Source of the DNA: Candidatus Avelusimicrobium luingense
Lineage (GTDB): Bacteria; Elusimicrobiota; Elusimicrobia; Elusimicrobiales; Elusimicrobiaceae
DNA length: 64,000 nucleotides
Direction of reading: 5' to 3'
Assembly: GCA_900315845.1 (NCBI GenBank)
Contig: OOHK01000004.1
Coordinates: forward strand, 1 to 64,000
Shown: positions 1 to 63,585 of the stretch, one piece after another
How positions within the stretch are numbered: position 1 is the stretch's first letter
Layout of the letters: each line of letters opens with the position of its first letter
Program-made: the position numbers and the translations under genes
The notes under the pieces: model-generated
What the model was told of the DNA's origin: nothing
Seen by the model: the letters and a program-made list of their open reading frames with translations, nothing else
Databases searched by the model: none

Positions 1-3000
1 TTTGTTTCCAGGCATTAAGAATTTCTTTCCTTGCTTGTTTGGTAAGGGCCTTTATCTGCTTAGTTAACTGACGTTGCTCTTTAGGAGTCAAACCTATTAC
101 GGAAGAATAACTTTCTTCATAGAGCGCTACCGTAGCCAATGCATCATCTTTGGCTAAGACACGTTCTTGCTCCAAGGTCAACGCCGCCGTGGCTGCTTTT
201 TCCTCGGTCCAAGTCTTGTTAATGTTTTCTATGACTTGTAAAGCGCCATCAATATCTTTAGCCGCACGTTTTTGTTTGGCTTGCGCTAAGAGTTGATGGA
301 TTTGATAGCGTTGCTCTTTGGATAAGTCATCTCCTACCAAGAGCATATTCTCTTCCATTTGGGTGATATTTGCATCTATAATCTTAAGCCAATATGCATT
401 TTCTGCTTTATGTAAGTCAGGCAGTTCTGCCCAAGTAACAAATTGGGTGAACTTATCAGCCAGTTTATCTTCACTATTTGCAAGTTTGTTCAAAGTAGCC
501 TCGGCTTTATCTATTTCCCGCAAGATGGCTTTGCATTCTTGCGTAAAGAGGTGCCCTTGATCTTGCGCCATACGCTGTTGATAAGATTGGCGTTGGCGAG
601 CCAAAGCCTCTAAGTGCATGTTGACATTGTTGTCAAACAACGCTTGGTTTTGCGCTTGCGACCGTTTATTGAGGGCCCGTGTATAATCTATTCTCTTGGA
701 CAAGGTTCTCAATTGCGTTTGCACTTGCCCTTTGGTAAAGTCTTTGCCGAACAAGATCATGGTGCCTAATATCGGGGTGGAAATCAGCGCGCCTTGCGGA
801 GAATAAGGCCGGTGAGCAGCAGCGGTCACTTCATCTACCACATTCACTCGGGTATTGGTTGCATTCGGATTAGGGGTGGTGTCATCCGGATTGGGTTGGA
901 ATGTATCCCCGTATTTGTCTATCTCGGCCTGTTGTTGTTTTTCTACGGTGCTGTGCATCATATATTCTTGCAACGGAGCCATAGCCGCATCACCTAAGTA
1001 CCACCATGCAAAGAATTTTAAGTTGGCCCAGTATGCTTTGCCGGACCAAATGGCAAAATTGGTAAATGTGTTCCAGCCGCGATGCAACGCATTGTTCCGT
1101 AATACTTGACGGGCTGAAGGCGAAGTGGCGTTGCGGGTTAATTGCAAGGGCATATCAAAACCTTCCGGCATGCCGACTGTGGCGGACATGCGAAGGCCGG
1201 AAGTCCCACCTTTGGATAGTATTGCATATGCCGCGTTAATTTCAGCCATTTTGTTAGAAGCAAAAGCGATTTCCGCTTCGGTACCGGTAGCCATCCAACG
1301 ATCAGGGGCCCATTTAAGTGCAAGTTCGCGGTAGGCTTTTTTCAAAGATTCTTTTGTGATATCTCCCTCTAATCCAAGTATTTCGGCGGCTCTTTGTTCG
1401 GACATGGTGCTACTAACCGTTTGTGGGTTGGAAAATCCGCCTCGTTTCCCGTTGAACCAACGAGAGAAATGGAATGGGTGGATCCATTCCGGATGGGTAT
1501 AATTAAACGGGTTAGGATTAAACCCCGGCATGCTTTCAAATTTTTTCCAAACAGCGATTTTATCTGCCGTGGAAAGACTGCGAGTGTTAGATATCGTGCT
1601 GGTTAGTTCTTTGCCGGCCAATGTAAATACGCGATCCCCTTGAACCAAGGTTATACGTTCAATTTTCGGTGTTCCGTGCCGCAAGCCGTTCCATACACGG
1701 CCCCACCAATTAGCACCGTGATATTCCGCACCGGTGATATCCTGCGCCATGGGACTATAGTAATCTAAACCTAACCGGGAAACGGGGGCTTGTATTTTTT
1801 CTGTCGCCTCCACGCCTTCTAACGTGGTGCGTGCGGCTTTTTGTCCGTTGACAATATGCTCACCGGATTCCGCGGTATAACGGACGGCTCTTTCCGTTCG
1901 GGTAGCGAAGATGGTGGCATCTACATGTGTCGCGCGGAAGTTTGTGCTGCCATAGTGCCAGCCTTGTTGGACCGTCTTGCCAAATCCGGCCAATTTCTTG
2001 CCTTCGTCAGCCGCTTTGGCTACTTCAACGGCTTTAGGCATCATAACGATTGCACCTTGTGTCATTCGCAACGCGCGGACACCAAATATAAGAATTTCTC
2101 CCCCATATACCCAGAAGGCGGCTCCAAGGAGTATTTTCCCATATATTTTGGTTGTTTTCCAAATATCATCCCGCTTTTCTTGGCGGTAGTCAATGCCATT
2201 GTTTAGATATACATCCGCTATCCCGCCTTTGGAATCAAACATAAATACCGGAATCGTTCCCGATGGAATGGTTTGATTGTTATCGGCCACAAATTGATTA
2301 CGGTGCATATTGGTAAGGGTAATTAGGTGTTGGGGATCGGCGGCATATCCGTTATCTGTCCACACCGTATTGGGCTCCTGTAACGGTAATAAATTATCAA
2401 TGGCTGTTGCTAATTGGTTGCGTAATTCTTGCACTTGGTACGCATCTAATCCGTATCGTTTCCGCTTGCGAGGTGTTACGGAGGAGAAGGTTCTCCCTCT
2501 GGGGGCCATGGCGGCATATAAGTCCACCGCGTACGCGGCTAATTTTTGCCGGCTTTCATCACTAAAGTTTATATGGTTTGCTACGCTATCGAGTTCTTGG
2601 CGTTTGCTGTTTTCCAGAGAAGTTTTCCATGAATCGGGGGCATATGACACCCAGTCATCCATAACAGCTTTCGTTTCCCATTTATCTACTACATTAAGTA
2701 GTCCGGCCGAAGAGAGGGCTAATGCCCGCGTGGCTGTTGTATAGGTCGGGCCGGCAAAGGAAAGCAGCTGAAGTTTTAATTGGCGGATAGCATCCTTATG
2801 TAATAGATAGATTTTTGCCGTTTCCGTAGCGGTAGCAAATAAGGTTTGCAGAACGGTTTTGTATTTGACGTCAAATTTGGTTACATCATCTTCATCATCC
2901 GGGTTTTCTTTGCCTTCCAAAATTTCTACCATGGAGGACATTTCGTTGGGAAAATCAGCTAACAAAGCATAACGTATGGCGTATTGCGTGTGGAAATCTA

Positions 3001-4252
3001 ACAGGGCGAATTCGCTATCTCCGGGTTTAGATTCGTTATACAATTCCTTGAATTCGTCCATAAATTCATCCATAAACTTGCGGAAGATGCTTTCATCTTT
3101 GGAAACGGAACGCTTCGTTTCTGTTTCTTGGAATGCCTCCCACCCGTTGGGGATGGTATCTTCTTCCATAAAAGGACGTTTGAAAGAATTGCAAAATGCT
3201 TCATAATTGGAAATTACATTCACCGGAGGTTCCGCCATTTCTATACCCCGTCCGGAAAGAGAAAAGGTACTTGATAAACCGGTGCCCACATGGTTTACAT
3301 ATTGTCTGTACATTTCTTTGGTGGGGCGGATAAAAGTTTGGGTGGTTTGCGTTTCTTCTATCCGTGTTGTGAACGGATCTTCTACATTGATTGCTGCATA
3401 TAAGCGGTGAATTTCGTAAAGTAAAATGCGTAGCGTCCCGAAAAAAGCAATGGAAACCTCTCGATGGGGAAGCACCGTTTTTTCTTTAAGCAATTCCATT
3501 GCGCAATTGGTTAAGAAACAGGGCGTTACCGTTTTATTTGCGAGAGATTTAGCCTTGCGATAAATAGCAAAATTGGCTTCCTTTTTCTCGTAGTTATTGA
3601 AAAATTTTACATAGGCCGGAGTGTCCAACCGTTCTAAACTATGCAGGACTCTCACTTGCAAACGCGGCAGTAATGAAGATAGGTACGGAACATTGACCAA
3701 TCCGGATTGCGCACTAAGTTCAATTTGGTGGAGTTCATTGAATATCACTTCCGCCGCAAAGACACTTTCCCACGGATTAAACGGTTCTTCAATAGGGTCT
3801 ATTTTTTCCACCAAATCTGTAACTTCGTATTTATTGGCCGCCAATTCTTCCAAAAACGTAGAGAGTTGGCTGCCTGTTTTTTCATCAAAGTTGCTGATAT
3901 CCGGGTGAAAAGGGGAAGAAGATGTCTCGTTTTGTAGGGCATGCAAACTGGTCACCACGTTGCTTAAGGTATAAAATCCCGTGGGGTCTTCCCAGGGATT
4001 AATAGAGTTATACATTTCCATCAGTTTTTGTTTTTGCTCTATACGGCATTTGTCTAATTCTGTTTGTGTTTGAGCAGTGGAGCAGGTAGGATCCGATTGG
4101 ATAAATTGTTTATATACAGTTTGGGCTAAAGAACGTGTGATGTCTTGCGCAATATCGTTTGAGCGGGTATTTTGTTGGGCCCATAATAGTTCAGGGGAAA
4201 TGACGTTAAACATAAAAACGAAAATTAAAATGCGGCTTATCCACGTTAGCAT
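1..4252 (-). CDS. Giant exported J-domain-like coiled-coil protein, copy 1 (3' end outside window)
   Basis: The reading frame is open from an ATG at 4252 to the window edge (1,417 codons seen); about 56 more residues are expected by comparison with copy 2. An AGGAG ribosome site precedes the start. The N-terminus [20 protein letters not shown]...LLWA is a signal peptide almost identical to that of the two downstream paralogues. A long helical region follows, then a hydrophobic stretch (about residues 700-725), a J-domain-like segment (about 950-1010) and a coiled-coil tail rich in Gln, Lys and Ala. The J segment keeps the helix II/III layout but reads APD where active J domains have HPD, so stimulation of a DnaK ATPase is unlikely. 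DNA of the J region and the 3' end is nearly identical to copy 3. Function unknown. Confidence 0.85.
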   Translation of the reverse strand, partial: MLTWISRILIFVFMFNVISPELLWAQQNTRSNDIAQDITRSLAQTVYKQFIQSDPTCSTAQTQTELDKCRIEQKQKLMEMYNSINPWEDPTGFYTLSNVVTSLHALQNETSSSPFHPDISNFDEKTGSQLSTFLEELAANKYEVTDLVEKIDPIEEPFNPWESVFAAEVIFNELHQIELSAQSGLVNVPYLSSLLPRLQVRVLHSLERLDTPAYVKFFNNYEKKEANFAIYRKAKSLANKTVTPCFLTNCAMELLKEKTVLPHREVSIAFFGTLRILLYEIHRLYAAINVEDPFTTRIEETQTTQTFIRPTKEMYRQYVNHVGTGLSSTFSLSGRGIEMAEPPVNVISNYEAFCNSFKRPFMEEDTIPNGWEAFQETETKRSVSKDESIFRKFMDEFMDEFKELYNESKPGDSEFALLDFHTQYAIRYALLADFPNEMSSMVEILEGKENPDDEDDVTKFDVKYKTVLQTLFATATETAKIYLLHKDAIRQLKLQLLSFAGPTYTTATRALALSSAGLLNVVDKWETKAVMDDWVSYAPDSWKTSLENSKRQELDSVANHINFSDESRQKLAAYAVDLYAAMAPRGRTFSSVTPRKRKRYGLDAYQVQELRNQLATAIDNLLPLQEPNTVWTDNGYAADPQHLITLTNMHRNQFVADNNQTIPSGTIPVFMFDSKGGIADVYLNNGIDYRQEKRDDIWKTTKIYGKILLGAAFWVYGGEILIFGVRALRMTQGAIVMMPKAVEVAKAADEGKKLAGFGKTVQQGWHYGSTNFRATHVDATIFATRTERAVRYTAESGEHIVNGQKAARTTLEGVEATEKIQAPVSRLGLDYYSPMAQDITGAEYHGANWWGRVWNGLRHGTPKIERITLVQGDRVFTLAGKELTSTISNTRSLSTADKIAVWKKFESMPGFNPNPFNYTHPEWIHPFHFSRWFNGKRGGFSNPQTVSSTMSEQRAAEILGLEGDITKESLKKAYRELALKWAPDRWMATGTEAEIAFASNKMAEINAAYAILSKGGTSGLRMSATVGMPEGFDMPLQLTRNATSPSARQVLRNNALHRGWNTFTNFAIWSGKAYWANLKFFAWWYLGDAAMAPLQEYMMHSTVEKQQQAEIDKYGDTFQPNPDDTTPNPNATNTRVNVVDEVTAAAHRPYSPQGALISTPILGTMILFGKDFTKGQVQTQLRTLSKRIDYTRALNKRSQAQNQALFDNNVNMHLEALARQRQSYQQRMAQDQGHLFTQECKAILREIDKAEATLNKLANSEDKLADKFTQFVTWAELPDLHKAENAYWLKIIDANITQMEENMLLVGDDLSKEQRYQIHQLLAQAKQKRAAKDIDGALQVIENINKTWTEEKAATAALTLEQERVLAKDDALATVALYEESYSSVIGLTPKEQRQLTKQIKALTKQARKEILNAWKQ

Positions 4253-4285
4253 AAAGGGCTCCTTGATATATATACTTATATTATT

Positions 4286-4291
4286 ATTATA
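4286..4291 (-). promoter_or_regulatory. Probable -10 box of giant paralogue copy 1
   Basis: On the minus strand TATAAT lies 33 nt upstream of the ATG at 4252, at the same distance as in the two sister genes. No convincing -35 box is seen. The transcript would carry a leader of about 25 nt containing AGGAG. Confidence 0.5.
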
Positions 4292-4329
4292 CGGGTTCCT
4301 GTTCATTTGAAAAGACCCGTTTTGACAAG

Positions 4330-4366
4330 AAAAAAGGCCTATGCCTCTTTAGGGCTTTAGGCCTAG
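4330..4366 (-). terminator. Second (distal) terminator hairpin between copies 2 and 1
   Basis: Inverted repeat with AGGCCTA at one end and TAGGCCT at the other, followed on the minus strand by six T. It lies just past the first terminator of copy 2 and just before the copy 1 promoter. The same element recurs before copies 2 and 3. Confidence 0.6.
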
Positions 4367-4369
4367 AAA

Positions 4370-4396
4370 AATATCCCCCGGATTAAGCCGGGGGAT
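4370..4396 (-). terminator. Rho-independent terminator of giant paralogue copy 2
   Basis: Perfect stem CCCCCGG / CCGGGGG with a 6-nt loop, starting 20 bp past the stop of the copy 2 gene and followed by ATATTTTT on the minus strand. Confidence 0.85.
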
Positions 4397-4413
4397 AGTA
4401 AATTACGAATTTA

Positions 4414-7400
4414 TTAGTCGCCTAATTCATTGTCTTCATCCATTTCTATTATGCTGCCGGTAGATTTCGATGAAGACTCAATTTGGCTTCTTTCATAGAC
4501 ATCGAGCATCGTTTCGATTTGTAACCACAGATTGGTATAAATGTCTGTATACCGAATTTGTAATTCCGGTAACGTCAGTTCTTTTTGTTTCCAGGCATTA
4601 AGAATTTCTTTCCTTGCTTGTTTGGTAAGGGCCTTTATCTGCTTAGTTAACTGACGTTGCTCTTTAGGAGTCAAACCTGTCAAACCTATTAAAGAAGAAT
4701 AAGTTTTTTCATAGAGCACTACCGTAGCCAATGCATCATCTTTGGCTAAGACACGTTCTTGTTTCAAGGTCAACGCCGGAACCGATTTTTCCCCTGCGAT
4801 AATGAGGTTGATTTGTTCTATGTCGCTGACTGCACTGATATCCTTAGCCGCACGTTTTTGTTTGGCTTGCGCTAAGAGTTGATGGATTTGATAGCGTTGT
4901 TCGTTGGGCAAGAAATCTCCTGCCAAGAGCATCTTCTCTTCCATTTGGGTGATATTTGCATCTATAATCTTAAGCCAATACGCATTTTCTGCTTTATGTA
5001 AGTCCGGCAGTTCGGCCCAAGTAACAAATTGGGTGAATTTATCAGCCAATTCGTCATTACTATTTGCAAGTTGGTTCAAAGCGGATTCGGCTTTATCTAT
5101 TTCCAGTAAGATGGCTTTGTATTCTGGCGTAAAGAGGTGCCCTTGATCTTGCGCCATACGCTGTTGGTAAGATTGGCGTTGGCGAGCCAAAGCCTCTAAC
5201 TGCATGTTGACATTGTTGTCAAAAATGATTTGATTTTTGGCTTTGCTCCGTTTGAGTAACGCGCGGTTCAGTTCCATTTTCCTGGCGGCAATATTGACAG
5301 CCGTCTCATTATAAAATTTCTTATCAAATAGGAGCATTCCCGTTAAGACGGGGGCTACCATCAGACTCCCTTCCGTGCTTGATAGTTCACTGCGCTGTAT
5401 CGTTGAAATCGGATAAAGGAGATGACTTGCCGGTGAATGATCAGCAAGTTCCGAATCTTCCGGTTGGGTGGCATAGGCGGGATTATACGCTTCGGCTTGT
5501 TCCTGGGCTTTGTCCGGAATTGCGATGGAAGTATAATACCCGCGCAGTGGGGAGAGTGCTATATCTCCCAATTTCCACTTAGTAAAGAAACTGGCGATGG
5601 AGAAAAGCGATTTGATTTCGCTATTATGTATCAATTGAAACCAAATCGGCAAACTTTCGGTCTGTCCGGTTTGAACCAAGTGGGCGGCTAATGTTTGGCC
5701 TATATCTATATCGGCATTGGCCGCACCGATACCGATTCCGCCGGCCTTTGCGGATAAAGGATTAAACGCGGCTTCTTCAACCAGAGCGATATCGCCACCC
5801 CAAGTAGGGGTAATTGCCAACGAGATACCGTTGGCGTTGGACGGAATGGTCGGATTGAGTAAACGAGTGCTTCCGTTTTGCCCGACTTTAGCAAGGGCTT
5901 CATCTAAAGCAAGGTTATATTGCTCGAGAGTCAAGGTCCTTGTGCCAATAGTGATTTTTTTGCCGGCATTTGTTAAGGCATTATAGGCTTCGGCGGCAAT
6001 TTTGAATTGTTCTTCCGCTATCATATCACCGGGGTTTCTGTCGGGGTGGTATTTCATGGCTAATTTACGATAGGCTTTCTCTAGGACTTTTTTGGAAGCA
6101 CCGCGTTCAACCCCCAAGATTTCATAATAATTCGGGAATCCGCCTTTACCCAAAGCCATTTCTTCGACTTTTAAGAAATTTAACCGTTGATAAAAATCTG
6201 TCGGGTCAATACGTTCCCAAGCCTTACCGTTAAAAGCCCAATAGTCAAAGAATTCACTGCCGGCTTTGTCGGCTTCAAGAGCTTTGCGGGTTGCGTTGAA
6301 GAAATCAGCGGTACGGTCCGCCTGCCACATATTCTTAATGCCTTGTTTAATATTCCAGGACAACGCCCTTCGCGGAATGTCCATATTGGCTTCCACCCAC
6401 TCTATAATCTTCATTTTATCCGATTGGGAAAGACGGCCGACTTCTTTACCTAAAATTTTCTTCAAAGTTTCTTTTCCAAGCGAAATCGGCTTGCCGTAAG
6501 CCAAAATCGTCACTTCTTCGATGTTTGATGGTCTCATAAACGGTCTTTGCCACCACCTTGCTGCGCCTTTTACATCGGTCAGATTTCCCACACCAAAATT
6601 AGTGCCGTTGCGCGTTACCGAGGTGGGTATTTGAGGAACTTTGTTTCTTTGGAGGGGATTTGTCCATTTTTTTGCTTTGGCCGTATTCCTGCCAATTGCA
6701 GCGGCGCCCGTACCGGTGCCCGATGCTGTTTGGTTGGCATATTTAACGTTTTCTATACGGGTCGTGGATGCCCACTTATATTTGGTACTCGTATTAGCCA
6801 GGCGTTGTGCTGCGGCAAATTTGCGGCCGACTCCTAATGTGCCACCCCATTGGGTGCTCCAAAAGGTAGCGCGACCGACGATGACATAATTGCGTACCAG
6901 ACTAATACCCTTAAACACCAATTTGAACGCACCGCCCAGCACAAACCATTCTATAATGTCAAACACAAAGGCTGCACAGGCGGCTTCTTGTTCGGCATAT
7001 ACTTTGTAAGCGTTGGGAGTGTTATGCGGTTCTACGTTAAAGACTTCTCCGTTGGAATCGTAGAAATAGAGGGGCACAATGCCCTCTTTATACATAAAAC
7101 CGGGTTGCCCGTCGGTTTTGGGAGTTTTGTAAGTTATGTCGTTAGTGCACATATTTTCCCGTTCAAATTTTGGGCCGGGTACATATTCAACAGGCGCCCG
7201 ATGGCTTTCCGTATGCTCTACGCGGACGCTGGTCGGGGCTGTCACCGGCAAAAACATTTCAATAGAATCTGCTAATTGATCGGACAGTGCCACCATTTGT
7301 TGGCTGTCCAATCCGTAAGTCTTTTGTTTGCGGTTCGGGGCGGAAAAACCGGCCGGATGATACGGCGCATCTGTTTTCCATTGCATCGGGGCATAAATAT

Positions 7401-9234
7401 CTACCGCATAACCGACCAATTTCTGCCGTTGATCATGCGAAAAACCCAATTGCGGATAGGCGTGGCTGTCGGTCTCTCCCCAATAAACGGGGTTGGCATT
7501 ATAGTTCATAACGGCCGCGGCTCCGATGGCCATGACGCGTCTGGCCGTTGTGCGACATCCGGCTTCTTGCATTAAAAATGATTTGACCGCATTTAACGTG
7601 GCTGGGGTAACCAGATTGCTTTGTGCCGCATATGGGATAGAAGCAAAGAGTACTTCCATGAAATCTCGGGCCGTTACATCGTTTATGTCTTCAATATTGT
7701 CCCGGCTGGGTTGCTCAACGCCCTTCCCTCCGAATGATTCCGATACCAAATTGCCAATGTTTGCTAGGGTTGCATCCCCGGAGGATGGTGCATCCAGTTT
7801 GGTGAATTTATCTAAAAGTTTTCGTAAATATTCGGGATGATTCCCTTCCAATGCATACGTGACAAAATATTGTATTCGTGTTTGCATTTTCGCATAGACA
7901 TGGGGGAGCTCTGAAGAATCCACATAGTGTATGTCCCGTAAAGCCTTATCAAGAATTTGTAGGGTTTGATCTTTAGTGATGAATTCGTCGTCCGCTATGC
8001 GTCTTATTTCTTCGGATAAATAATAGTCAGACGGGATGGTAATATCCGGTTCTTCCATATATTCCATAACATGTTGGGCATACCACTGCCGGTAAGAAGG
8101 AATTTCTCCTTCAATTTTAATACGTTTTTTTTCAACGTCTTGTACAAATTTTTCGTAGGCTTCTTTTTTGGGGCGTAATTTCCAAACCGTTATGTCTGTA
8201 TTTCCGGTAGTTACGTGCGTGTGAAAGGGGATGTTTAATGCTTTCATCCATTGATCAAGCACGAGTATTAACCTGCGTAGTGTGCCAAGGATGACGATAT
8301 CTTCACCGGGAGCAAACTCTTCCAATAGTTTTGGTTCTTCTTCCTCATCATTGTTTCTTGATAGAGAGGGCAAAGAGTTTGTCGGTAGATTATGAAACAC
8401 TTTATTCTGAACCATCACCGCCCGCAACCATAACCGAAGAATTAGGGGTTTAAGTTCCTCTATCTGTTCCGGCGATAAATTTTGAATGGAAGTAGCGGCT
8501 AATTCTTGCGTGATGACATCTGCCGCATAAGCGGAAATTGTTACGGAATCGTTATCAAATCGGTCTAGCGGGTCCAAAAATTCCATGAGATCTTCAAGGG
8601 AGAAAATTCCGCGTTTTAATTTGGCTAAAAAATCTGCCGGGGTGGTTACATCAAAATCGTCTATCGTTGCGTTTGCGGCAGAGGCTTTCCATGGGTCCTT
8701 GCCGTGTGGATTGAATTGGTTGGCGAGTTTTTTGTCCCGCAACAGGCACACTTGATAGGAAGTAAGATTTTGGGTGTGCGGAAAGCGGGTCCATTTGGCG
8801 ACAGTAAATCGTTGGCCCCAATCATGCATGGCCTCTAAGAGTCTCCATAAGGCCCGTAGCGCATCCCCTTGTCCGTTTGTGTCCAAGATATTATACATAT
8901 CACGCAGAGAGCAAGCGATGTCGGCATAGTGCTCACGTAATTTGCCGACGTCTTTGGCACTTGTTAAATCTTCTTTATCTATTTTGTGGAGGAATAAGAA
9001 TGTGGCATAATCTAAATCTTTTGCTTCCCATTCGTCTTGCGGGGCGTGCGTAATAAGCGAAGGCAAATCTGAATCTTCTTCATAAGAGTTTTCTATTTCT
9101 TCTTGAAGGTTGTCTACAATTTGCTGACGCAAAGAATTTGGCGTTGCGGTAGCCGATTCGGCCCACAATAATTCGGGGGAAACGGTATTAAACAGAAAAA
9201 CGAAAATTAAAATGCGGCTTATCCACGTTAGCAT
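4414..9234 (-). CDS. Giant exported J-domain coiled-coil protein, copy 2 (intact HPD)
   Basis: Protein of 1,606 residues. The frame extends 63 codons further upstream, but the ATG at 9234 is chosen because it begins the signal peptide shared by all three copies and has an AGGAAC site before it; the upstream part lies in terminator and promoter sequence. Visible parts: signal peptide (1 to about 26), a long alpha-helical body with no family I recognise, a semi-hydrophobic segment with two acidic residues (about 753-785), a J domain (about 1030-1090) with an intact HPD near residue 1063, and a C-terminal coiled-coil region from about 1340 ending in an acidic tail. Whether the J domain sits in the periplasm or, if the middle segment spans the membrane, in the cytoplasm cannot be decided here. 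Flanked by paralogues on both sides. Function unknown. Confidence 0.9.
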
Positions 9235-9267
9235 AAAGGGTTCCTTAGCATATACATCTGTACTGTT

Positions 9268-9273
9268 ATTATA
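9268..9273 (-). promoter_or_regulatory. Probable -10 box of giant paralogue copy 2
   Basis: TATAAT on the minus strand 33 nt upstream of the ATG at 9234; position and flanks match copies 1 and 3. No clear -35. Confidence 0.5.
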
Positions 9274-9310
9274 CTGTTTTTCGTCTATTTGAAAAGACCC
9301 GTTTTGACAA

Positions 9311-9348
9311 GAAAAAAGGCCTATGCCTCTCTGGGGCTTTAGGCCTAG
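9311..9348 (-). terminator. Second (distal) terminator hairpin between copies 3 and 2
   Basis: AGGCCTA...TAGGCCT inverted repeat followed by six T on the minus strand, a near copy of the element at 4330-4366. Confidence 0.6.
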
Positions 9349-9378
9349 AAAAAATATCCCCCGGGTTAAGCCGGGGGA
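9349..9378 (-). terminator. Rho-independent terminator of giant paralogue copy 3
   Basis: Stem CCCCCGG / CCGGGGG separated by 6 nt, then ATATTTTTT on the minus strand, 17 bp past the stop at 9395. Confidence 0.85.
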
Positions 9379-9394
9379 TATGGAACGGAACAAT

Positions 9395-12300
9395 CTATTG
9401 AATTCCAAGTTCGTTGTCTTCATCTATTTCCGTTATACCTTTGGTGGTAACTTTTGATGAAGGCTTGTCTTTGGCATAGGCACTAAGCACCGTTTCGATT
9501 TGTAACCACAGATTGTTATAAATGTCTGTATACTGAATTTGTAATTCCGACAACGTCAAGTCTTTTTGTTTCGAGACATTAAGAATTTCTTTCCTTGCTT
9601 GTTTGGTAAGGGCCTTTATCTGCTTAGTTAACTGACGTTGCTCTTTAGGAGTCAAACCTATTACGGAAGAATAAGTTTCTTCATAGAGCGCTAACATAGC
9701 CAATGCATCATCTTGGGCTAAGGCGCGTTCTTGCTCCAAGGTCAACGCCGCCGTGGCTGCTTTTTCCTCGGTCCAAGTCTTGTTAATGTTTTCTATGACT
9801 TGTAGAGCGCCATCAATATCTTTAGCCGCACGTTTTTGTTTGGCTTGCGCTAAGAGTTGATGGATTTGATAGCGTTGTTCGTTGGACAAGCCATCTCCTA
9901 CCAAGAGCATATTCTCTTCCATTTGGGTGATAGTTGTATCTATAATCTTAAGCCAATATGCATTTTCTGCTTTATGTAAGTCCGGCAGTTCGGCCCAAGT
10001 AACAAATTGGGTGAACTTATCGGCCAGTTTATCTTCACTATTTGCAAGTTGGTTCAAAGTGGCCTCGGCTTTATCTATTTCCAGTAAGATGGCTTTGCAT
10101 TCTTGTGTAAAGAGGTGCTCTTTATCTTTCGCCATACGCTGTTGATAAGATTGGCGTTGGCGAGCCAAAGCCCCTAAGTGCATTTTGACATTGCTGTCAA
10201 ACAGTGCTTGGTTTTGCGCTTGCGACCGTTTATTGAGAGCCCGTGTATAATCTATTCTCTTGGACAAGGTTCTCAATTGCGTTTGCGTTTGGCCTTTGGT
10301 AAAATCTTTGCCAAACAAGATCATAGTGCCTAATATCGGGGTGGAAATTAAAGCCCCTTGGTAAGCAGTACGTTGGCTGGCAGAATTATTGACATCGCTT
10401 ACCACATCCACGCGGCCTTCTGCTGCATACGGATTGGGCGCCGGATCTGACGGATCGGGTTTGAACGAATTGCCATATTTATCCATCGCCTCTTGCGTTT
10501 GAGTAGTGATGGTATGATCCATCATCGCCCATTGGGCCGGATAAATGGCTTTATCCCACAAGTGCCACAAGGTAAAGAATTTTAAGTTGGCCCAATACGA
10601 TTGCCCAAACCAAGTGGCGGCATCGGTAAATGTGTTCCAACCGCGATGCAACGCATTGTTCCATAATACTTGACGGGCTGAAGGCGAAGTTGCATTGCGG
10701 GTTAATTGCAAGGGCATATCAAAACCTTCCGGCATGCCGACTGTGGCGGACATGCGAAGGCCGGAAGCCCCACCTTTGGATAGCATTTCATATGCTGCGT
10801 TAATTTCAGCCATTTTGTTAGAAGCAAAAGCGATTTCCGCTTCGGTACCGGTAGCCATCCAACGATCAGGGGCCCATTTAAGTGCAAGGTTGCGATAGGC
10901 TTTTTTCAAAGAGGCTTCTGTGATGTCTCCCTCTAATCCAAGTATTTCAGCGGCTCTTTGTTCGGACATGGCATTACTGCTAGTGGTACCCGGTCTGGAA
11001 AAACCGCCAAATCCGCCCTTTCTTCCGCCAAACCACCGGCCAAAATCAAAAGGATGTAACCAGTTGGGATGGGTATAATTATACGGATTAAGGCTGAACC
11101 CTTCCATCCCTTCAATTTCACGCCAGATCGCAATTTTATCACTCGTAGAGAGCCGGCGGGTATTGACGCCTAATTCACCTAATCTATTGGCATTGAGAGT
11201 AAATTCTTGTCCGTTTTGGAAAACGGTTACGCGTTCAATTTCCGGCGTTCCGTGCCAAAAGCCGTTCCATGTACGGCCCAACCAACCTTTTCCGGCATAT
11301 TCCGCGCCGGTAATATCCATAGCGGTTGGGTTGTAATACCCGGAACCATAACGTGTAACAGGGGCTTGTATTTTTTCTGTCGCTCCCACGCCTTCTAACG
11401 TGGTGCGTGCGGCTTTTTGTCCGTTGACAATATGTTCACCGGATTCGGCCGTATGGCGGACGACTTCTTCGGTCCGGGTGGTGGTAAAGGTAGCCCCTAC
11501 ATGGGTGGCGCGGAAGTTTGTGCTGCCGTAGCGCCAACCTTGTTGGACCGTCTTGCCGAATTCGGCTAACTTTTCCCCTTTATTAGCGGCTTTAGCGGCT
11601 TGGAAGGCTTTGGGCACCATGACGACGGCGCCATGTGTCATTTGTAAAGCGCGGATACCGAACATAATAATCTCTCCGCCAAAGGCCCATAATGCGGCTT
11701 CAAAAAGCAATTTAACATAAACTTTTGCTTCTTCCAAGCGGCGTTGACGTTGGTTGAGTGCATTCAGCAAATACACATCAAACACGTTGTTGTTGGAATC
11801 AAACATAAATACGGGAATAGTACCGCTGGAGAGTTCTCCGTTGGGGAGTTGCCCCGTGAATTGGCCGCGGTTTAAATCGGTAATGGTAACGAGATGTTCC
11901 GTATCGGCGATATAACCATGTTCGTTTGTCCATACAGTATTGGGCTCTTGTAACGGACAAAGATTGTCAATAGCATTTGTCAGTTGGTCAGAGAAAGCCA
12001 ACATTTGGTCAGCATCCAACCCATAAGTTTCTTGGCTGCGGTTGGGAGACGATACGAACGGACGTACCCGATACTGCATGGGAGCATACAAATCTACCGC
12101 ATAGGCGGCTAATTTTTGGCGGTAGTCATCGTTAAACGCTAAATTGTTGTTAACGGAAGCATACACGCGTTGTTGTTCGTTTAACCACTCGTTATTGTAG
12201 GGATTTTCCATAGCGTTCCATTTTTGTGAAACATGGAGCAACCCCGCCGCACTTAATGCCAAAGCACGGGTAGCTGTTGCGTTTTGCGGCCCGGCTAAGT

Positions 12301-13768
12301 TTACTAATTCAAGTTGCAATAAACCGACCGTGGCATTGTCTATCGGATATATTTTGGCAGTTTCCGTTATGGTGCCGAATAAGGTCTCCAAAATACTGCC
12401 GAATTTCAGTTTGAAATCTACGATATCTTTTTCGTTTTCCGGGGCTTCATCTCCTTCCAAGACGGCAACCATAGTGAGAATTTCAAGGGGGAACCCCGCC
12501 AACAAAGCATAGCGTACCACATATTGGGTTTGCAAATTGAGGAAAGCATAGGCGCTTTTGCCGGGTTTGGCTTTTTTATGAAATTCCTTAAATTCATCTA
12601 TAAATTTCTTCATAAATTCACGGAAAATGCTTTCATCTTTGCTAATCGTGCGCGTGCCGCTTACTTCTTGGACAACTTCCCACCCGGTAGGGATAGTTTC
12701 GCCTTGGGCAAGGGGGCGTTGGTAAAATTGGCAGAAAGAGTCATAATCCAGTTGAAGTAGGCTAGGAAATACTGTACCCAGTTCAATATTGTTAGTGTTC
12801 GGCGTCATGGTGTGCATTTCCTCTAATCGGTTCTTCGCCTTCTGATAGGTTTCTTGGGTCGGGCGGATAAACGGGATGGCAGATACTGATTCTTCCCATT
12901 TGACGGTCATGGGGTCTTCCAAGCCCATTTCTTGATACAAACGGTGAATTTGGTAAAGCAGAATGCGTAATGTACCGCGGAACATGATGCTATCTTCCGG
13001 AAACCATGGTTTAGAACTGTTGAGTTGCGTATCTATGGCTTTGTCTTCGTCTCCCTCCGGCGACTCAAAGCGATTTAAACGATACAAGGCCCGTACTTGT
13101 ATGCGCGGTAATGTAAGCGCAAATGCCATAGGATCTATTTGCCCGCTTTTTAACCCGGATAAACTTTGATTTAACGTATTTAATATAACTTCCGCCGAAT
13201 AAGCACTGATAAGCGGAGAAAATTGTTCTTCAATAGGGTCTATTTTTTCTATTAAATCGTTCAAATCATATTTATTAGCGGCTAATTCATCTAAAAAGGT
13301 CCTTCCTTTGAGCTGCTCCTCGCGCAAGGCCATATCCGGGCGCGGAGCAACATAAAGGGCATCGGCAACGGGTTCCATAGGTTTGAAACGAGGATTTGAG
13401 AAGTCGGCTGCTGCTGCTAACTCGTTAAGGCGTTTACGATATGCAGCCCGTAACGAATGTAATTGTTCCACTACGGTTGCAAGCATAGAAAAACCGGCCA
13501 TATCTTCAATGGCATTGATGGAGTTATAAAGTTCCATCAGTTTTTGCTTTTGCGTGGTATAGCATTTCTCCAATTCTTCCGGCATAACGCCTAGGAAACA
13601 CGAAGAATCGATCTCATGAACTTGTTCTCGGACCGCTAATGTTAATGAACGCGAAATATCCGCGGACAAATCGTCGGGGCGGGTATTTTGTTGTGCCCAC
13701 AAGAGTTCGGGAGATATCGTATTGAAGATAAAAACAAAAATTAAAATGCGGCTTATCCACGTTAGCAT
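9395..13768 (-). CDS. Giant exported J-domain-like coiled-coil protein, copy 3 (APD variant)
   Basis: Protein of 1,457 residues starting at the ATG at 13768, preceded by AGGAGG; the 77 codons open upstream are untranslated by comparison with the sisters. Same order of parts as copies 1 and 2: signal peptide, helical body, a hydrophobic segment (about 690-720), a J-like domain (about 936-1000) and a C-terminal coiled coil. The J triad is APD near residue 964, as in copy 1. The N-terminal half is only moderately similar to copy 1 and weakly similar to copy 2, whereas the last 300 or so codons are nearly identical in DNA among all three, which points to duplication plus gene conversion. It is the first of the array after phoH, with its own promoter. 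Function unknown. Confidence 0.9.
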
Positions 13769-13801: not shown

Positions 13802-13807
13802 ATTATA
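13802..13807 (-). promoter_or_regulatory. Probable -10 box of giant paralogue copy 3
   Basis: TATAAT on the minus strand 33 nt before the ATG at 13768. It sits in a short direct repeat (CAGTATA, four bases, CAGTATA). Confidence 0.5.
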
Positions 13808-13844
13808 CTGTTTTTCGTCTATTTGAAAAGGCCCAATTTGACAA

Positions 13845-13885: not shown

Positions 13886-13915
13886 AAAAAAGCCCGCCGC
13901 TTGGTTGCGGCGGGC
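13886..13915 (-). terminator. Rho-independent terminator of the phoH-like gene
   Basis: Perfect 9-bp GC stem (GCCCGCCGC / GCGGCGGGC) with a 6-nt loop and six T on the minus strand, 16 bp past the stop at 13932. Confidence 0.9.
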
Positions 13916-13931
13916 CGTAACTGACTCGTTT

Positions 13932-15257
13932 TTACAGTAATTTAGAGGCCAAATCAGCCAGATGGCTGCGTTCCGTTTTGGTAAATGTAATGTGGCCATA
14001 CGATTTTTGGCCGCGCATGCGATCTACCAAATACGTGAGCCCGTTAGATTGTACGTCCAAATACGGCGTATCAATTTGGTACGGGTCGCCCGTTATCACC
14101 ACTTTTGTTCCTTCGCCCGCGCGGGTGAGAATGGTTTTCATTTCGTGCGGAGTTAAGTTTTGGGCATCGTCCACAATCATATATTGCCCGGGCAGAGAGC
14201 GCCCGCGCATGTGGGTAACGGAGGCAATTTCAATTTTGCCGCTGTCCAATAAATAATGCGCTTTTTCTTCGCCTTCATCGGGGTTTTTGCGGTCGGCGAG
14301 GAAGGCCAAGTTGTCGTAAATGGCACCCATCCACGCTTCTAATTTTTCTTCTTTAGTCCCCGGCAAGAAACCTAAATCTTTACCAACCGGCACGATGGAG
14401 CGGCAAACTACCAAACGGCGGTAAGCGTTTTCGTCCATGGTGCGTTGCAAACCGGTGGCCAACGTAATAAGCGTTTTACCCGTTCCGGCGGTACCCACGA
14501 GCGTAACAATATCCAAACTGTCATCCAACAACAGCTCCATCGCAAAGCGTTGCTCTTTGTTCAAGGGTTTAATGCCCCAAGCGACGGGTTCTTGGTTGGA
14601 AAGCGGGTGCAGAATAAAATTGCCATCATTGGAAATACGCCCGATGGCCGATTTTTTACTGCCGTCATTTGTTTTTAAGATAACAAATTGGTTCGGCACA
14701 TAAATAGTCGGATCCATAGCGAGTTGCTTTTTTTGATAGAACGTGTCAATTTGGGAAGGATCCACTTCTACTTCGGTAACCCCGGTGTAGAGTTCGTCCA
14801 CATTGACTTTATCACTGGTGTAGTCTTGCGCGCACAGGCCGAGTGCTTCGGCTTTCAAACGCATATTGATATCTTTGGTAACGACAAACACCGGACGCGC
14901 ATTCTTTTTATACGAGCCTTCTTTTTTACCTAGTGTATAAGCAATATTCAAAATAGAGTTATCGGCTTTGTTAAATGCAAGTGATTGCGGAAGTGAGTTG
15001 GGTTTATCCAATTCAATTTTCAGTGTGCCGCCGGTAGGAAGTGCTACGCCTTCATTGAGCCGCCCCAGTTCGCGCATTTTGTCTAATTCGCGCGATACCA
15101 TACGGGCATTTTTACCGCGGGTATCGCTTTCATTTTTGAAGGCATCTAATTCTTCAATTACTGCCATGGGGATAATGATATCGTTGTCTTCAAAAGCGTG
15201 CAGACAATTTACATCATGTATTAACACATTGGTATCTAAAATAAAAGTTTTTTTCAT
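13932..15257 (-). CDS. PhoH-family PIN-domain ATPase
   Basis: Predicted RNA-linked ATPase/nuclease of the PhoH2 type, 441 residues: an N-terminal PIN domain (about 1-150, starting MKKTFILDTNVLIHD with acidic metal ligands at D8 and in the EELDAF segment) joined to a PhoH P-loop ATPase. Walker A is GTAGTGKT at 255-262 and Walker B IVDDAQN near 345. The frame opens 23 codons earlier, but the ATG at 15257 follows GAGGAAC and starts the PIN fold exactly. In other bacteria PIN-PhoH proteins unwind and cut RNA; that is family knowledge, not shown here. It is a single-gene unit with its own promoter and terminator, divergent from the GH57 gene. Confidence 0.93.
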   Translation of the reverse strand: MKKTFILDTNVLIHDVNCLHAFEDNDIIIPMAVIEELDAFKNESDTRGKNARMVSRELDKMRELGRLNEGVALPTGGTLKIELDKPNSLPQSLAFNKADNSILNIAYTLGKKEGSYKKNARPVFVVTKDINMRLKAEALGLCAQDYTSDKVNVDELYTGVTEVEVDPSQIDTFYQKKQLAMDPTIYVPNQFVILKTNDGSKKSAIGRISNDGNFILHPLSNQEPVAWGIKPLNKEQRFAMELLLDDSLDIVTLVGTAGTGKTLITLATGLQRTMDENAYRRLVVCRSIVPVGKDLGFLPGTKEEKLEAWMGAIYDNLAFLADRKNPDEGEEKAHYLLDSGKIEIASVTHMRGRSLPGQYMIVDDAQNLTPHEMKTILTRAGEGTKVVITGDPYQIDTPYLDVQSNGLTYLVDRMRGQKSYGHITFTKTERSHLADLASKLL

Positions 15258-40213: not shown

Positions 40214-42406
40214 CTAGTCGCGTAAATCGCCTTCTTGTCGCCACGGATACCAATAGGTATCTTCGGGCAGTTGGGCTTTGTTGCGGTTTTTAGCACCGCA
40301 CAAAATCGTAAAGCGTAGGGCAAAAGATAAGTTGTCGTTGCGGTGGCGGACGGTTAAATCCAGCCGTGCATCGTGAAAATCATGCACAAGACGAGCCATT
40401 TTGTTAAACCCAATTACGCTTCCGCGGAAAAACGAGGCATCTATCCCTAAATCTAATTTCCATTTTTGATTTGGCGGACGCAAGCCAAGCGTGGTGGTAA
40501 CGGTATAGCGGTCTGCATTGGTGGTATAGCGAGATCCGGGGTCTGTATAATCGGCAAAGTTATTTAAGCCCAAGCCGAGTATTTGTCCTTTAATATTAAA
40601 GTTAGATTGGGCAATAAAATTCAAATTCTTCTTGATTAAGTCGTATTGATCTTGAATAAAGAAATTGATAGTTCCGTCCGGTGAGTTGTAGCCCCATTCC
40701 GCTAAGAACGGCTCTATGCGTTCTTTGAGATGTTCCCACGTAATTTCTCGCCCGAAACCATCGGTTAAATCGTAGGTATAGTCGGACAAATTAAACCCGG
40801 CTCCCAATTTAACGTGTGTGTGCAACGTGGGGCGGTAATAATGATTGACGTATAAGTGGTTGCGTTCAATACCTTTATCGGGTGATAAACTATCCGATGA
40901 AATGGTACCGGTGGACAGACGTTTGGTGAATTGATAGCCGAAATCGGTATTGCCCAGTAAGGAGCGGGTTTGCATATTAACATCCGTTCCCACGCGGCCT
41001 ACCCAAGCATCTTTATCATTATAATGGGTATCATCAAACGTAATTTTTTGATCGTAAAATACGCTGGGCATCAACGTAAAATACCCTAAACGAAAAGATT
41101 TTTCTGCCGTCCAACGCGCGTGGCCTTGCCGCTGATACGGGCCTTCTTCGTTGGGGCGGTCGTTTTGGTATTGCAATTTGGATGTATTATTGAAATCTAC
41201 TTCAAAGCGGTGCGATAATTTTAACAAAGGATCGTTGACGGGCAAAATCATATATTTAATTTCCGGCAGCACACGTTTTTCGGCCATAAATTCGTTTTTG
41301 TTCCACGCGAAAATATCTTTTTCTTCGTACGATACGCGCAAAGTCGTTCGACGTGTTTGGCGTGCCACGGATAAGTTGGTTTCTTGGTCGGGCATGAAGA
41401 TATAGGGGTTGCTGCGGAAGAATGAATCGTTAAAATACGGATCGGACACTTGGCGAAATTGCGTTTGTAATTGATACAAGGCCCCGGATTCGTTATTGAA
41501 ATGATCGGAAGAATCGTATATTTCCCACCAGTAACCGCCTTTAAGCCCCCAGCGTTTTTTGTCGGAGAGTTCCAGTTCTTTCGCGTTTTGGTCGTTAATA
41601 AAATAATACTCCGCACTACCGCGCAAGGTGGGCGACTCAACAGCCGTAAGCCCCGCCCCGATTCCCACACCCGATTGGGTGTAATAATCTAAATTTAATA
41701 TCGGGCGCAAGCCGAGTATCGGCTTAAATACGGACGAAGTCAACACCCCAAACCCCACGTGATTGCTTTGGGTAAAATCTACATACGTCGTCCACGGTTT
41801 TTGGGAATCTAACGACCGCCAAAAAACAGGTAAATACAGTATCGGCACGCCATCTACGCGCATAACTGCGTTGGTGCCAAACACACGCTTTTGCGGCGAA
41901 ACGGTCAACTTCCCGACGGAAAGCGTATAGTGCGGATCTTCGCAATCGCAACAGGTTACTTCGGCATGGCGCAATTTTTGTTTGCCGTTTTTGGATGAAA
42001 TTTCCTTTGCCCCTAAAATGCGCAAGGGGGGATATTCGGTGGTTAAATTTTCGGCTTTGAAATCTTTGGTGGTGTAGTTACCGGTAACGTTGGTGCCGTG
42101 CAAAACACCGCCTTGTCCGTCTTCCAAAGTAATGGGGCCGACCGATGTAAAAGTGGTGTTTTCTTGGTCGTATGTTAAATTTTCTCCCGTAACGGTGCGT
42201 TTTTTGCCGTCGGGCGTTTTTTGAATAATCGTTACGTTTCCGGTCAGATTAACTTTTTTGGAATAAGGTTCTACGGTAGCGTTGTCGGCGGTGAAATAAA
42301 TAAAACCGTCATTATCCGGCGCGGGTAACGTGCGGTCTTGCGCCGCGGCAAATGCGGTGCAACAACACAACAAGGCAAACGATTTCCAAAAAGTCTTATG
42401 CATCAT
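40214..42406 (-). CDS. lptD: LPS-assembly outer-membrane protein LptD
   Basis: 730 residues. Signal peptide ending AFAAA, an N-terminal OstA/LptA-like beta-jellyroll (about 35-190; NLTGNVTIIQK, TVTGENLTYD), then a large C-terminal barrel domain ending in aromatic-rich strands. The LptD family inserts LPS into the outer leaflet with LptE. The Cys-rich spot VTCCDCED (near 150) may form disulfides, but the E. coli arrangement is not clearly conserved. It abuts the ROK gene (0 bp) and ends the 12-gene operon. Confidence 0.88.
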   Translation of the reverse strand: MMHKTFWKSFALLCCCTAFAAAQDRTLPAPDNDGFIYFTADNATVEPYSKKVNLTGNVTIIQKTPDGKKRTVTGENLTYDQENTTFTSVGPITLEDGQGGVLHGTNVTGNYTTKDFKAENLTTEYPPLRILGAKEISSKNGKQKLRHAEVTCCDCEDPHYTLSVGKLTVSPQKRVFGTNAVMRVDGVPILYLPVFWRSLDSQKPWTTYVDFTQSNHVGFGVLTSSVFKPILGLRPILNLDYYTQSGVGIGAGLTAVESPTLRGSAEYYFINDQNAKELELSDKKRWGLKGGYWWEIYDSSDHFNNESGALYQLQTQFRQVSDPYFNDSFFRSNPYIFMPDQETNLSVARQTRRTTLRVSYEEKDIFAWNKNEFMAEKRVLPEIKYMILPVNDPLLKLSHRFEVDFNNTSKLQYQNDRPNEEGPYQRQGHARWTAEKSFRLGYFTLMPSVFYDQKITFDDTHYNDKDAWVGRVGTDVNMQTRSLLGNTDFGYQFTKRLSTGTISSDSLSPDKGIERNHLYVNHYYRPTLHTHVKLGAGFNLSDYTYDLTDGFGREITWEHLKERIEPFLAEWGYNSPDGTINFFIQDQYDLIKKNLNFIAQSNFNIKGQILGLGLNNFADYTDPGSRYTTNADRYTVTTTLGLRPPNQKWKLDLGIDASFFRGSVIGFNKMARLVHDFHDARLDLTVRHRNDNLSFALRFTILCGAKNRNKAQLPEDTYWYPWRQEGDLRD

Positions 42407-50794: not shown

Positions 50795-53700
50795 TTATCT
50801 CAACAATTCGGCGATTACCTTTACATACGTGCTAGGCAAACGCATGGCTTCGGTATTGATAACACCGCAGCGGATAAGCATAATTTCCAACATATGCGTT
50901 AAAATATCATAGAAGTTTTCGCGCACAGACGGTTCGCATACGTTTAAGGCGGGCCCTAAAATCACGGCTCCGTGTAATTTTTTGTTATCACACAAGTTGG
51001 CAATTTTAAAGGCCGACGAAATGATATTTTCAGTAGAGTATGACGAGCGTACCGCAATATCAAACCCACCGCTAATACCTAATTCTTTGGCGCGTTGTTC
51101 CAAGGCATAAACCATCCAGTTCATCGCGCTGGAATTATTGCTCGGGTAGAAGAAACCGATGCGTCCCCATTCGCCGTTTCCTACGGTGCTGATAGAGGAA
51201 ATAGAGGCAGGTTCTTTGGTTAATAATTCGCTGTTGGGGTCTTCTCCGGTCGTAGCAAGTAATTTTTCCAACATATCCGCTTGGGAGCGTTGGGATTCGT
51301 CTATGTGTGGGAAAATTAAATTTTCCAACACTTTCAGCCGGTGAATACTGCGTTTGATGGCACTAAGCGTCATGTGTGTATCGTTAAAGAATTGGGAAAT
51401 TTGGGCATCGGTTAAATCTACGCCGTTTCCCATGAGCATTGTTTTAACGATTTTGAAATGAGAATGCCCGCTGGCTGCCTTGAGTTCGGAGATCCAACCG
51501 GAGTCTAAATGGAATTGGATTAAATCTTCCAATTTGCCTAAACTTTCCGGCGGATATTTAGACGTTACCACAATTTGTTTTTGTTCTTTCAAAAATTTAT
51601 TAAGTAATTTTGAAATGTGGGCGCGGTTTTGTTCGTTAATAGCAAGCAAGTGGATATCGTCAATCAAAAGCACTTTGACGGTGTCCATAAATTTTTCAAA
51701 TTTTTCCATGTTGCCTTCCAGCGCATAGCGTTGGATACCGCGGGATAAACGCACCCCGTTGGTCATGAAAATATTTTCTTGCCCGAATTTCTTAGAGAAC
51801 CCATACGCCATCGCGTTTAAGAAGTGGGTTTTACCGGTCCCTGTTGTTCCGTGGAACACAAGCGGGTTATACATTTTGCCCGGATTATCCAATACGGAAA
51901 TAGCGGTAGCGTGTGCAAAACGGTTGACGGACAATACCAAATTTTCCAAGGTATATGTCGGAAGTAACGGCACTTCCAACGGCCAATTGTGTTTTTTGAG
52001 TTCCGAAAGAGGTAATTCAATGGAATAGTCAATTGTTTTTGTTTTTTCCATAGGATCATTTTCTTCCGGGATTTGGGGAGCCGGAGTGGCGGATGCGCTC
52101 GGCATTTCCGGCATGGAAGATTGTTGCAAAGAAGGCATAGCCGGTGCCGGTATAGGGGCAGCGGGTTGCTCAACTGCCGGTATGGCTGGCGGAGCCGGAG
52201 GCGTTGTCATCTCTGCCGGGGCTATTGGAGCCGTCGGTGCCACCGGGGCTGCAGGCGCTACCGGTGCTTGGGGCGGTTGAACCGCGGGTGGCGGAGGAAC
52301 CGGCGCACTCGGCGCAACGGGTTTGGGTGCAGCAGGTGGAGTAACTGACGGAATAACAATTTTTTTAGGCATAATAGGAGTCCTCGGTGTAGTCGGAGCC
52401 GGGGCAACCGGTTCGGCAGATGGTGTTTGCTCTCGCAGACGTAAAATAGTTTTACCTGACGGTGCCGTTTTTAAGGGTTCTTCTTCAGGTTGCGGCACAG
52501 CAACGGGTGCCGGAGTAACAATAGATTCAGGTTGTTCCGCAATAGGAGCATCCTGTGTTGGAGTAGCGGGCGGTTGCTGTGGCGTCCGCAGGTGTAAAAT
52601 TGTTTTTCCCGATGGGGCCTTTTGATCCGATACGGCCGGTTTTTGTTCGGTTATTTTTGGCTCGGTGATCGGTTCAATGTCCGGTGTGATTTCCGAAGTG
52701 CCGACTTGGGCGGCCTTTTTGGGGGCGAGAATAGGAATTTCCGGCATGGATATTTCCGGTTTTTGCGCTTTGGGTGCCGCAGCGGGTGCCTTTTGTTCAG
52801 CCGGTTGCGGTTCAAGTATCGGTTGTGGCGTAACATCTAAATCGTCCGGGATATCAATGCGCGTCATATCTTTGGTATCAACAGAAACTTCTTCCGATTC
52901 TTCGTCGTCATCTTCTTGGGTGGAAATAGTAGAAACTTCATACATGGGATTTTGCGAATTTTCTTCGGTCAGCGTATCCATGTTTTCCGGTACGTCCGGT
53001 GTTTGCGGTGTCAATTCTTTTTCCGTATGTTGCGATTTGGCAAACTGGGAACGCATGACTTCGGTGCTGATAGTCGCCTCTAAATTGAAGGTTTTTTCCA
53101 AAGATTCCACTTCACGGCTTGAAGCATCCGAGTCTTCTGTATGCGGTGTAATATCGGGCAGATTGTCCTGACCGTTTTGGGTGACGAGTTCCGCCGGCGG
53201 GACCGTATTTTCTAATTTCATTTCTTCCGGTACCGGGCAAGGCACATGCGTAATGGCATCTACGCGGATAGTTTCTTCCGTATCCGGTTGGATGCTTTGT
53301 ACGGATAAATCTTTGAGTAACGAAGATGTTTTTAATACTTCTTGTTCTACGGCGTTTTGTTCGGGTAATGTTTCCGCCATAGCGTTGAGTTGGTCTAAAT
53401 CTAAAATGCTGGTTTGGTCTTTGATTTTTTGGTCAAAGATATTAAATCCGTTTCCCGCACCGGAAGCATTTTCTGCTTGATCCAGTTTTTTATCGCGAGC
53501 CGTTTGTGATGATTTGTCGGCCTTAATCTTATTGACATCCAAAAACATATCGTATTTGGTCTCTGCCGAGAAAATATCCTGTAACGGCATTTTGCCAAGT
53601 AGCGTATCTTCCATATCTTTAATCAACATATCTTTATCGCTAAAAGGCAAATCGTTGGAATCGGCTTGTTCTTCTTCCTGGGGGGCATCTTTGTCTTGGA

Positions 53701-63520: not shown

Positions 63521-63535
63521 AAGCCTATCCTCCTT

Positions 63536-63566
63536 ACAAAAAGCCCGCACTAAAGTTAGCGCGGGC
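63536..63566 (-). terminator. Terminator of rpmB
   Basis: Stem GCCCGCGCTAAC / GTTAGTGCGGGC-like pairing (GCCCGC...GCGGGC) then TTTTT on the minus strand, just before the bamA ribosome site. Confidence 0.8.
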
Positions 63567-63585
63567 ACGTTTTCTAACAAAACAA

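Follow-up and report, generated by a model that had tools for sequence, protein, structure and literature searches.

Giant proteins with signal-like starts and an optional J domain at a tandem locus of Candidatus Avelusimicrobium luingense

What can a J domain do in a giant protein that seems to end outside the cell, when DnaK, the Hsp70 that it would be expected to recruit, is inside? The question is raised by the first 64,000 bases of contig C4 (OOHK01000004.1) of Candidatus Avelusimicrobium luingense, the genome of which comprises 1.46 Mb in 8 contigs; this whole stretch is referred to here as the window. Three giant paralogous genes lie in tandem on its minus strand (to which all coordinates given below for these genes refer), and they share a common plan consisting of a signal-like start, a helical body, a weak hydrophobic segment, a J domain and a helical tail. 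The open reading frames (ORFs) as called span positions 2-4306 (open at the contig edge), 4414-9423 and 9395-13999, while a conserved MLTWISR represents the likely start of each copy and revises the gene bounds to 2..4252 for copy 1 (at least 1417 amino acids (aa), extending past the contig edge), 4414..9234 for copy 2 (1606 aa) and 9395..13768 for copy 3 (1457 aa). We put forward, tentatively and with rather less than even confidence in the explanation as a whole, that these are giant, fast-diverging exported proteins whose optional J domain would recruit DnaK to their own unexported chain.

J domains and the HPD motif in the three copies

The J domain of the giant copies is genuine. The Pfam DnaJ model (PF00226, cut-off 27.8 bits) scored 69.9 bits for copy 2, 35.7 bits for copy 1 and 36.3 bits for copy 3, placing the domain at 5953..6132 (aa 1035-1094), 1211..1384 (aa 957-1014) and 10775..10948 (aa 941-998), respectively, and no second DnaJ domain was found by Pfam in any of the copies. 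The J fold anticipated by the original prediction was recovered in an AlphaFold2 model of the C-terminal half of copy 2, with a mean predicted local distance difference test score (pLDDT) of 64.3 and a predicted TM-score (pTM) of 0.31, in which the tail forms long helices. The 34 best Foldseek matches of this model in the PDB are all J-domain entries, and its J stretch aligns with the DnaK-bound J domain 5nro_B at a TM-score of 0.82 (target length) and a root-mean-square deviation of 1.1 over 56 columns (E 0.009), none of the PDB matches of the C-half model reaching E<=0.001. The Pfam scores together with the Foldseek matches rule out a J domain by chance. In the same genome, the J domain of copy 2 shares 57% identity over 60 aa with a small J protein of 370 aa and 41% with another of 331 aa; these two represent the only other matches to copy 2, no further copies of the giant family being found there. 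Reading of the sequence established that copy 2 carries the His-Pro-Asp (HPD) motif at 6040..6048 and that APD replaces it in copy 1 (1301..1309) and copy 3 (10865..10873), so that the three giant paralogues with signal-like starts, of which only one retains HPD, are as had been predicted, the signal being called by pattern.

The manner in which the copies resemble one another bears on the origin of the APD motif. When copies 1 and 3 were compared in blocks of 100 columns, synonymous divergence (dS) reached saturation or a value of at least 1.15 in 10 of the 15 blocks, and a further block gave 0.57, as against 0.10 in the block containing the J domain and no more than 0.18 in three tail blocks; the blocks adjoining the J block gave 1.6 and 1.2. 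At the codon level the alike tract that spans the J domain covers 1061..1405 in copy 1 (aa 950-1064) and 10625..10969 in copy 3 (aa 934-1048), with 14 of 115 codons differing, and the tail tract differs at 35 of 257 codons. The tail of copy 2 (4417..5226) is itself 85-88% identical at the DNA level to those of copies 1 and 3, and the approximately 120 bases upstream of each start are 73-87% alike. The simplest reading is that gene conversion has acted on the ends and on the J block, leaving divergent middles. As the J block of copies 1 and 3 has been homogenised, their APD would most simply represent one event maintained alike by gene conversion, two separate losses being a less simple account than one shared homogenised tract. 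Copies 1 and 3 had been described as degenerate, which is correct for the motif but not for the genes, as their frames are open and the converted tract bearing the J domain is still constrained: the ratio of nonsynonymous to synonymous differences (pN/pS) between the two copies is 0.34 in the J tract (p 0.017) and 0.30 in the tail, while the J domain alone gives a value of 0.52, which is not significant (p 0.16).

The family, its optional J domain and the Hsp70 partner

A profile of the N-terminal region built from 27 members found matches at E<=0.001 in 48 of the 66 genomes of the genus, a number of these being weak, and in 50 of the 235 genomes of the class, the two outside the genus being weak N-terminal matches in a sister genus; the giant family is almost confined to one Elusimicrobiaceae genus, probably Candidatus Avelusimicrobium. 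In the window the array adjoins a phoH/PIN gene (13932..15257, minus strand; identified by Pfam and locus comparison), which serves as a conserved anchor of the locus, and in its relatives the giant gene likewise adjoins phoH/PIN and, in loci reaching far enough, stands opposite a gene pair. Among 80 phoH loci a giant family gene follows phoH in 24 and precedes it in one (L067), and 17 of the remaining 55 hold less than 5 kb after phoH; at all 24 loci a single giant family gene was seen within the stretch fetched. For 13 chosen loci, phoH is 87-97% identical to that of the window and GH57 is 65-87% identical (one GH57 being cut short), while the giant proteins of these same loci gave local matches of 22-34% over part of their length, or none. 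Over whole alignments, relatives are 15-26% identical to copy 2, and the range is about 15-27% when the body is considered as well. The nearest relative by phoH (L064, 97%) possesses one giant gene of 2436 aa, and the phoH of L136 is 86% identical to that of the window. The locus therefore appears to be hypervariable, through either mutation or the replacement of copies, and the fast change of the body beside steady flanks suggests that pressure from outside may act on the body as a part of the surface or envelope.

Possession of a J domain is optional in this family. The domain was recognised in 19 of 55 non-redundant family ORFs, one of these being truncated, and in none of the other 36, although 7 of the latter are cut by contig ends and some family ORFs are fragments (the set includes the three window copies and leaves out L048, L049, L050, L052, L054, L060 and L148, which are the same genes as other loci). 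A tree of the body was built from 48 rows, 16 with a J domain, from which the fragments L145, L161 and L162 and the rows below 100 bits (L152, both L153 ORFs and L156) were also removed. On this tree, presence of the J domain requires 8 changes, at least 6 of them on starred branches, and the domain has therefore been lost or gained repeatedly. The original prediction would have been refuted by homologues lacking any HPD-type domain; many relatives are of this kind, but the giant family as a whole is not. Relics of a J domain in the J-less members were sought and rejected, as the best score in the 36 sequences was 4.8 bits compared to 7.5 bits in 360 shuffled ones. On the body tree, L055 and L056, two members from genome G004 in which no J domain was recognised, make up a four-member starred group together with copies 1 and 3, and their J-profile matches (2.4 and 0.9 bits, not significant) sit where alignment A2 places the J domain.

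Where the J domain is present, its motif is well retained. In a census of 18 J-bearing members, from which the truncated J domain of the second L153 ORF was omitted, D is found in all of them, P in 17 and H in 16, the median for J columns being 0.44, and the full motif is found in 15 of 18, of which 14 belong to the 15 members outside the window, where L069 carries HTD instead, and one to the three inside. On this sequence evidence, the HPD of the J-bearing members is kept by selection.

As regards a partner, an Hsp70 match was obtained in all 66 genomes of the genus, at full length in 56 (open frames of 625-647 aa) and as pieces only in 10. The search of the window's own genome returned one full-length Hsp70, DnaK, and one weak match of 353 aa; weak matches of about 350 aa also occur in the genus search, and we take these to be MreB. 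The N-terminus of the genome's own DnaK, MAKIIGIDLGTSN, has no signal, and frames of 625-647 aa are hardly long enough to include a signal peptide as well. Neither the genome itself nor the 66 genomes of the genus yielded an exported Hsp70, with an 847-aa relative in G065 left unexamined, and the odd location of a J domain in an exported protein, rightly perceived in the original prediction, is the sharper a puzzle for it. Where present, the J domain most likely acts on cytoplasmic DnaK, as HPD appears to be kept by selection and DnaK is the sole bona fide Hsp70 found.

Site and target of J-domain action

If the explanation put forward above is followed, a Sec-type signal would direct export of most, and probably all, of the giant chain, the J domain would recruit DnaK in cis to the chain while this is still unexported, DnaK would keep the very long chain fit for translocation, and the J domain itself would then be exported along with the chain. 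Copies 1 and 3, whose J block lacks HPD, would either manage without DnaK or need copy 2 for it. Our best guess, made with low confidence, is that the J domain serves the chain to which it belongs, either ahead of export or while export is under way; action in cis before export would be the likeliest timing because DnaK is inside while the giant protein seems to end outside. A narrower form, in which the J domain is cargo that recruits DnaK in cis and is then delivered to a place free of Hsp70, the module being gained and lost as the giants change, we regard as doubtful.

Full export was assessed through amino acid composition, using a test whose training set comprised 79 exported and 159 cytoplasmic proteins encoded in approximately 450 kb of the same genome, signals in this set being called by pattern. 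For fragments the test had an area under the curve of 0.90, a sensitivity of 0.83 and a specificity of 0.85, and a bitopic control protein scored 0.76 before and 0.23 after its membrane segment, as expected. The body was exported-like in all 27 members, the stretch from the segment to the J domain in 19 of 27 (10 of 10 among those bearing a J domain) and the tail in 23 of 27, while the whole-protein version of the test assigned the part after the segment as exported in 26 of 27. On balance, composition suggests that full export is likelier than retention of the J domain inside.

A number of observations weigh against recruitment of DnaK in cis to a chain that is subsequently exported. The signal peptides of all copies (4175..4252 in copy 1, 9157..9234 in copy 2 and 13691..13768 in copy 3) were called from sequence pattern alone, and only the genome's own DnaK start was read directly, the others being judged by frame length. 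The stretch from the J domain to FF was exported-like in only 16 of 22 members scored (it was too short to give a value in 5 of 27) and in 6 of 10 J-bearing ones; the window tails score as cytoplasmic (0.33-0.36), the J-to-FF stretch of copy 2 scores 0.40, and the 60 residues after the middle segment are very basic in 26 of 27 members, which fits a stop-transfer sequence with the J domain inside. The J domain is situated about two thirds along the chain, which is late for shielding the whole of it. J-bearing ORFs have a median length of 1524 aa as compared to 1280 aa for J-less ones, and independent pairs show the same direction in 3.4 of 6 and the opposite in none; with kinship allowed for, this association is not significant (median p 0.25), the pairs being too few, and lengths of up to 1852 aa occur among the J-less members.

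Several of these observations would be accommodated by a type I or double-crossing membrane protein in which the body is exported, the middle segment stops transfer and a cytoplasmic J domain brings DnaK to the membrane, an alternative to which we assign a real but minor chance. The segment lies at 2078..2134 in copy 1 (aa 707-725, Kyte-Doolittle hydropathy (KD) 1.85), 6925..6981 in copy 2 (aa 752-770, KD 1.76) and 11654..11710 in copy 3 (aa 687-705, KD 1.66), ranges in KD from 0.91 to 2.19 across 48 members and in 19 of 27 is the most hydrophobic stretch other than the signal. The membrane-active segment of the original prediction is thus conserved in place, but it is weak, its values falling inside the range of shuffled maxima, and many segments contain charged residues. 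A KD of at least 1.6 is commoner in J-bearing members (12 of 16, as against 6 of 32 J-less ones; raw p 0.0007), but this link vanishes in independent pairs and can be explained by kinship, and it is for this reason not claimed here. The basic flank, the retention of HPD, a DnaK that is inside and the cytoplasmic-like tails of the window copies are all in agreement with such a topology, while the tails of all 7 scored J-bearing members outside the window are exported-like (0.53-0.97), and no second crossing is evident at two candidate positions (KD 0.24-1.28 and 0.40-1.65).

Slightly less probable is a J domain that has become purely a structural or protein-binding part of an exported envelope protein and no longer has any Hsp70 partner. 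Such a role would be compatible with the failure to find an exported Hsp70, with the many losses or gains of the domain and with an APD-bearing tract that is still constrained in copies 1 and 3, but H, P and D are among the best-kept positions of a domain that otherwise changes fast, and the constraint loses significance when the J domain is taken by itself. We consider it very unlikely that copies 1 and 3 bind and modulate a working copy 2 in the manner of a Pam18/Pam16-like set, although pairs of HPD and non-HPD J proteins exist, as PMC13254874 describes for Pam16/Pam18, and the copies share tails as well as the constrained APD-bearing tract. The single copy at each of the 24 phoH loci, the many J-less members and an APD that most simply reflects one event all argue otherwise, leaving a co-chaperone with two regulatory or decoy relatives, as originally envisaged, unsupported as a general system. 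Exported J proteins of Plasmodium are thought to engage Hsp70 in red cells. An analogous engagement by the giants, having left the cell, of an Hsp70 of a gut protist, host cell or rival bacterium would suit their exported-like composition, their divergence beside conserved flanks and the lack of any own Hsp70 found outside, but is the least likely of all, as nothing pointed to release across the outer membrane, to a target or to a secretion system, no search for these having been made.

Recruitment of DnaK to the giants' own chain thus remains our tentative preference. HPD-bearing J domains in bacterial proteins that have an export signal, where no Hsp70 was found outside the cytoplasm, would imply that the membrane topology is not the expected one or else that the J domain works on the chain carrying it prior to export. 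The locus encodes giant proteins that diverge strongly within a gut genus, and the family offers natural HPD, HTD, APD and J-less versions for comparison.

The array, its surroundings and known systems

The array contains at least three copies, since copy 1 leaves the contig, and contig C6, which ends in precisely the 95 bases with which C4 begins, carries an 86-residue tail piece. The copy number may exceed three, as near-identical tails can break or collapse an assembly. A promoter-like TTTTCA-16-TATAAT was located by scanning at 4286..4313, 9268..9295 and 13802..13829, upstream of copies 1, 2 and 3, respectively; the scan overall returned 29 sites compared to 28.6 expected from shuffles, and support comes from the identical placement, 34 bases upstream of the start, before each copy. 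Terminator-like hairpins, from a scan giving 34 sites versus 22.2 in shuffles, are found in the gaps between copies 2 and 1 (4372..4397), copies 3 and 2 (9354..9381) and phoH and copy 3 (13891..13916). Elsewhere, a second tandem pair of family ORFs is present at L153:1-7256, the second ORF of which ends within its J domain. There are also ten short weak matches to the family signal region (L164-L173, in genomes G005, G026, G062, G077, G082 and G088), of which 8 lie within 60 bases of a contig end and resemble one another, suggesting that additional exported genes exist in several copies whose common 5′ ends interrupt assemblies. The last residue is Y or F in 19 of 24 members, often behind an acidic stretch, and copies 2 and 3 differ in this respect. 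Also present in the window are an Omp85/POTRA (BamA-like) protein (61163-63580, minus strand) and a protein with an LptC-type stretch (40214-42406, minus strand), which together suggest an outer membrane, as well as a 1106-aa protein (50795-54115, minus strand) with a DnaA-type ATPase domain at residues 719-874, preceded by a long N-terminal stretch to which no Pfam family matched at 1e-5. A further giant ORF of the same genome (L184:758-6169, minus strand; 1804 aa) has a signal-like start, no Pfam match at 1e-5 and no match to the giant family profile.

The AlphaFold2 model of the body (mean pLDDT 67, pTM 0.60) had no PDB match at E<=0.001, and among the 50 matches listed there were only generic helical solenoids (TM-score 0.08-0.15, query length). 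Across 27 members Pfam recognised the J domain in 10 and a further four families, each of them in a single member (best E 0.00075). Besides J-type models, the NCBIfam matches were to adenylosuccinate lyase models, for up to 4 members (best E 4e-7), and to HpsJ, for one member. Sequence matches in the PDB, among those listed (60 of 85), were all on the J stretch, as were nearly all PHROGs matches of copies 2 and 3, which are of unknown function save for one weak connector match. None of the PADLOC anti-phage defence models matched the three copies, and the literature on Elusimicrobiota and on exported or periplasmic J-domain proteins, at the level of titles and abstract openings, yielded no description of the giant family.

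Comparison with known systems places the giants beside several groups of J-domain proteins. With the two small J proteins of the genome, DnaJ among them, they have the J domain in common. The Plasmodium exported J-domain proteins (such as PFA66 and RESA) resemble them in combining a J domain with an export signal and in lineage-specific expansion, but, compared by description only, the window giants differ in being bacterial and in having no known delivery to a host cell. Class C J-domain proteins such as DjlA, Sec63 and TopJ similarly possess a J domain within an otherwise unrelated protein, and all three copies have the J fold of this class, of about 60-70 residues, although HPD in the loop joining helices II and III is present in copy 2 and absent from copies 1 and 3; the giants are set apart by a signal-like start, giant size and a J domain in mid-chain. 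Copy 2 reached 24.1 of 162 bits with the DjlA family model (PRK09430), on the J part only, and 59 of 300 and 44.5 of 512 bits with the TopJ models NF037946 and TIGR03835, and thus falls outside both families; the J domain of DjlA recruits DnaK to the membrane, as that of a membrane-spanning giant would, but in another topology. Copies 1 and 3, having a clear J domain in which HPD is replaced, conform to type IV pseudo-J proteins, of which Pam16 and DNAJB13 are examples (PMC13254874), and are distinguished from these as bacterial giants with signal-like starts that carry APD in one homogenised block of two copies.

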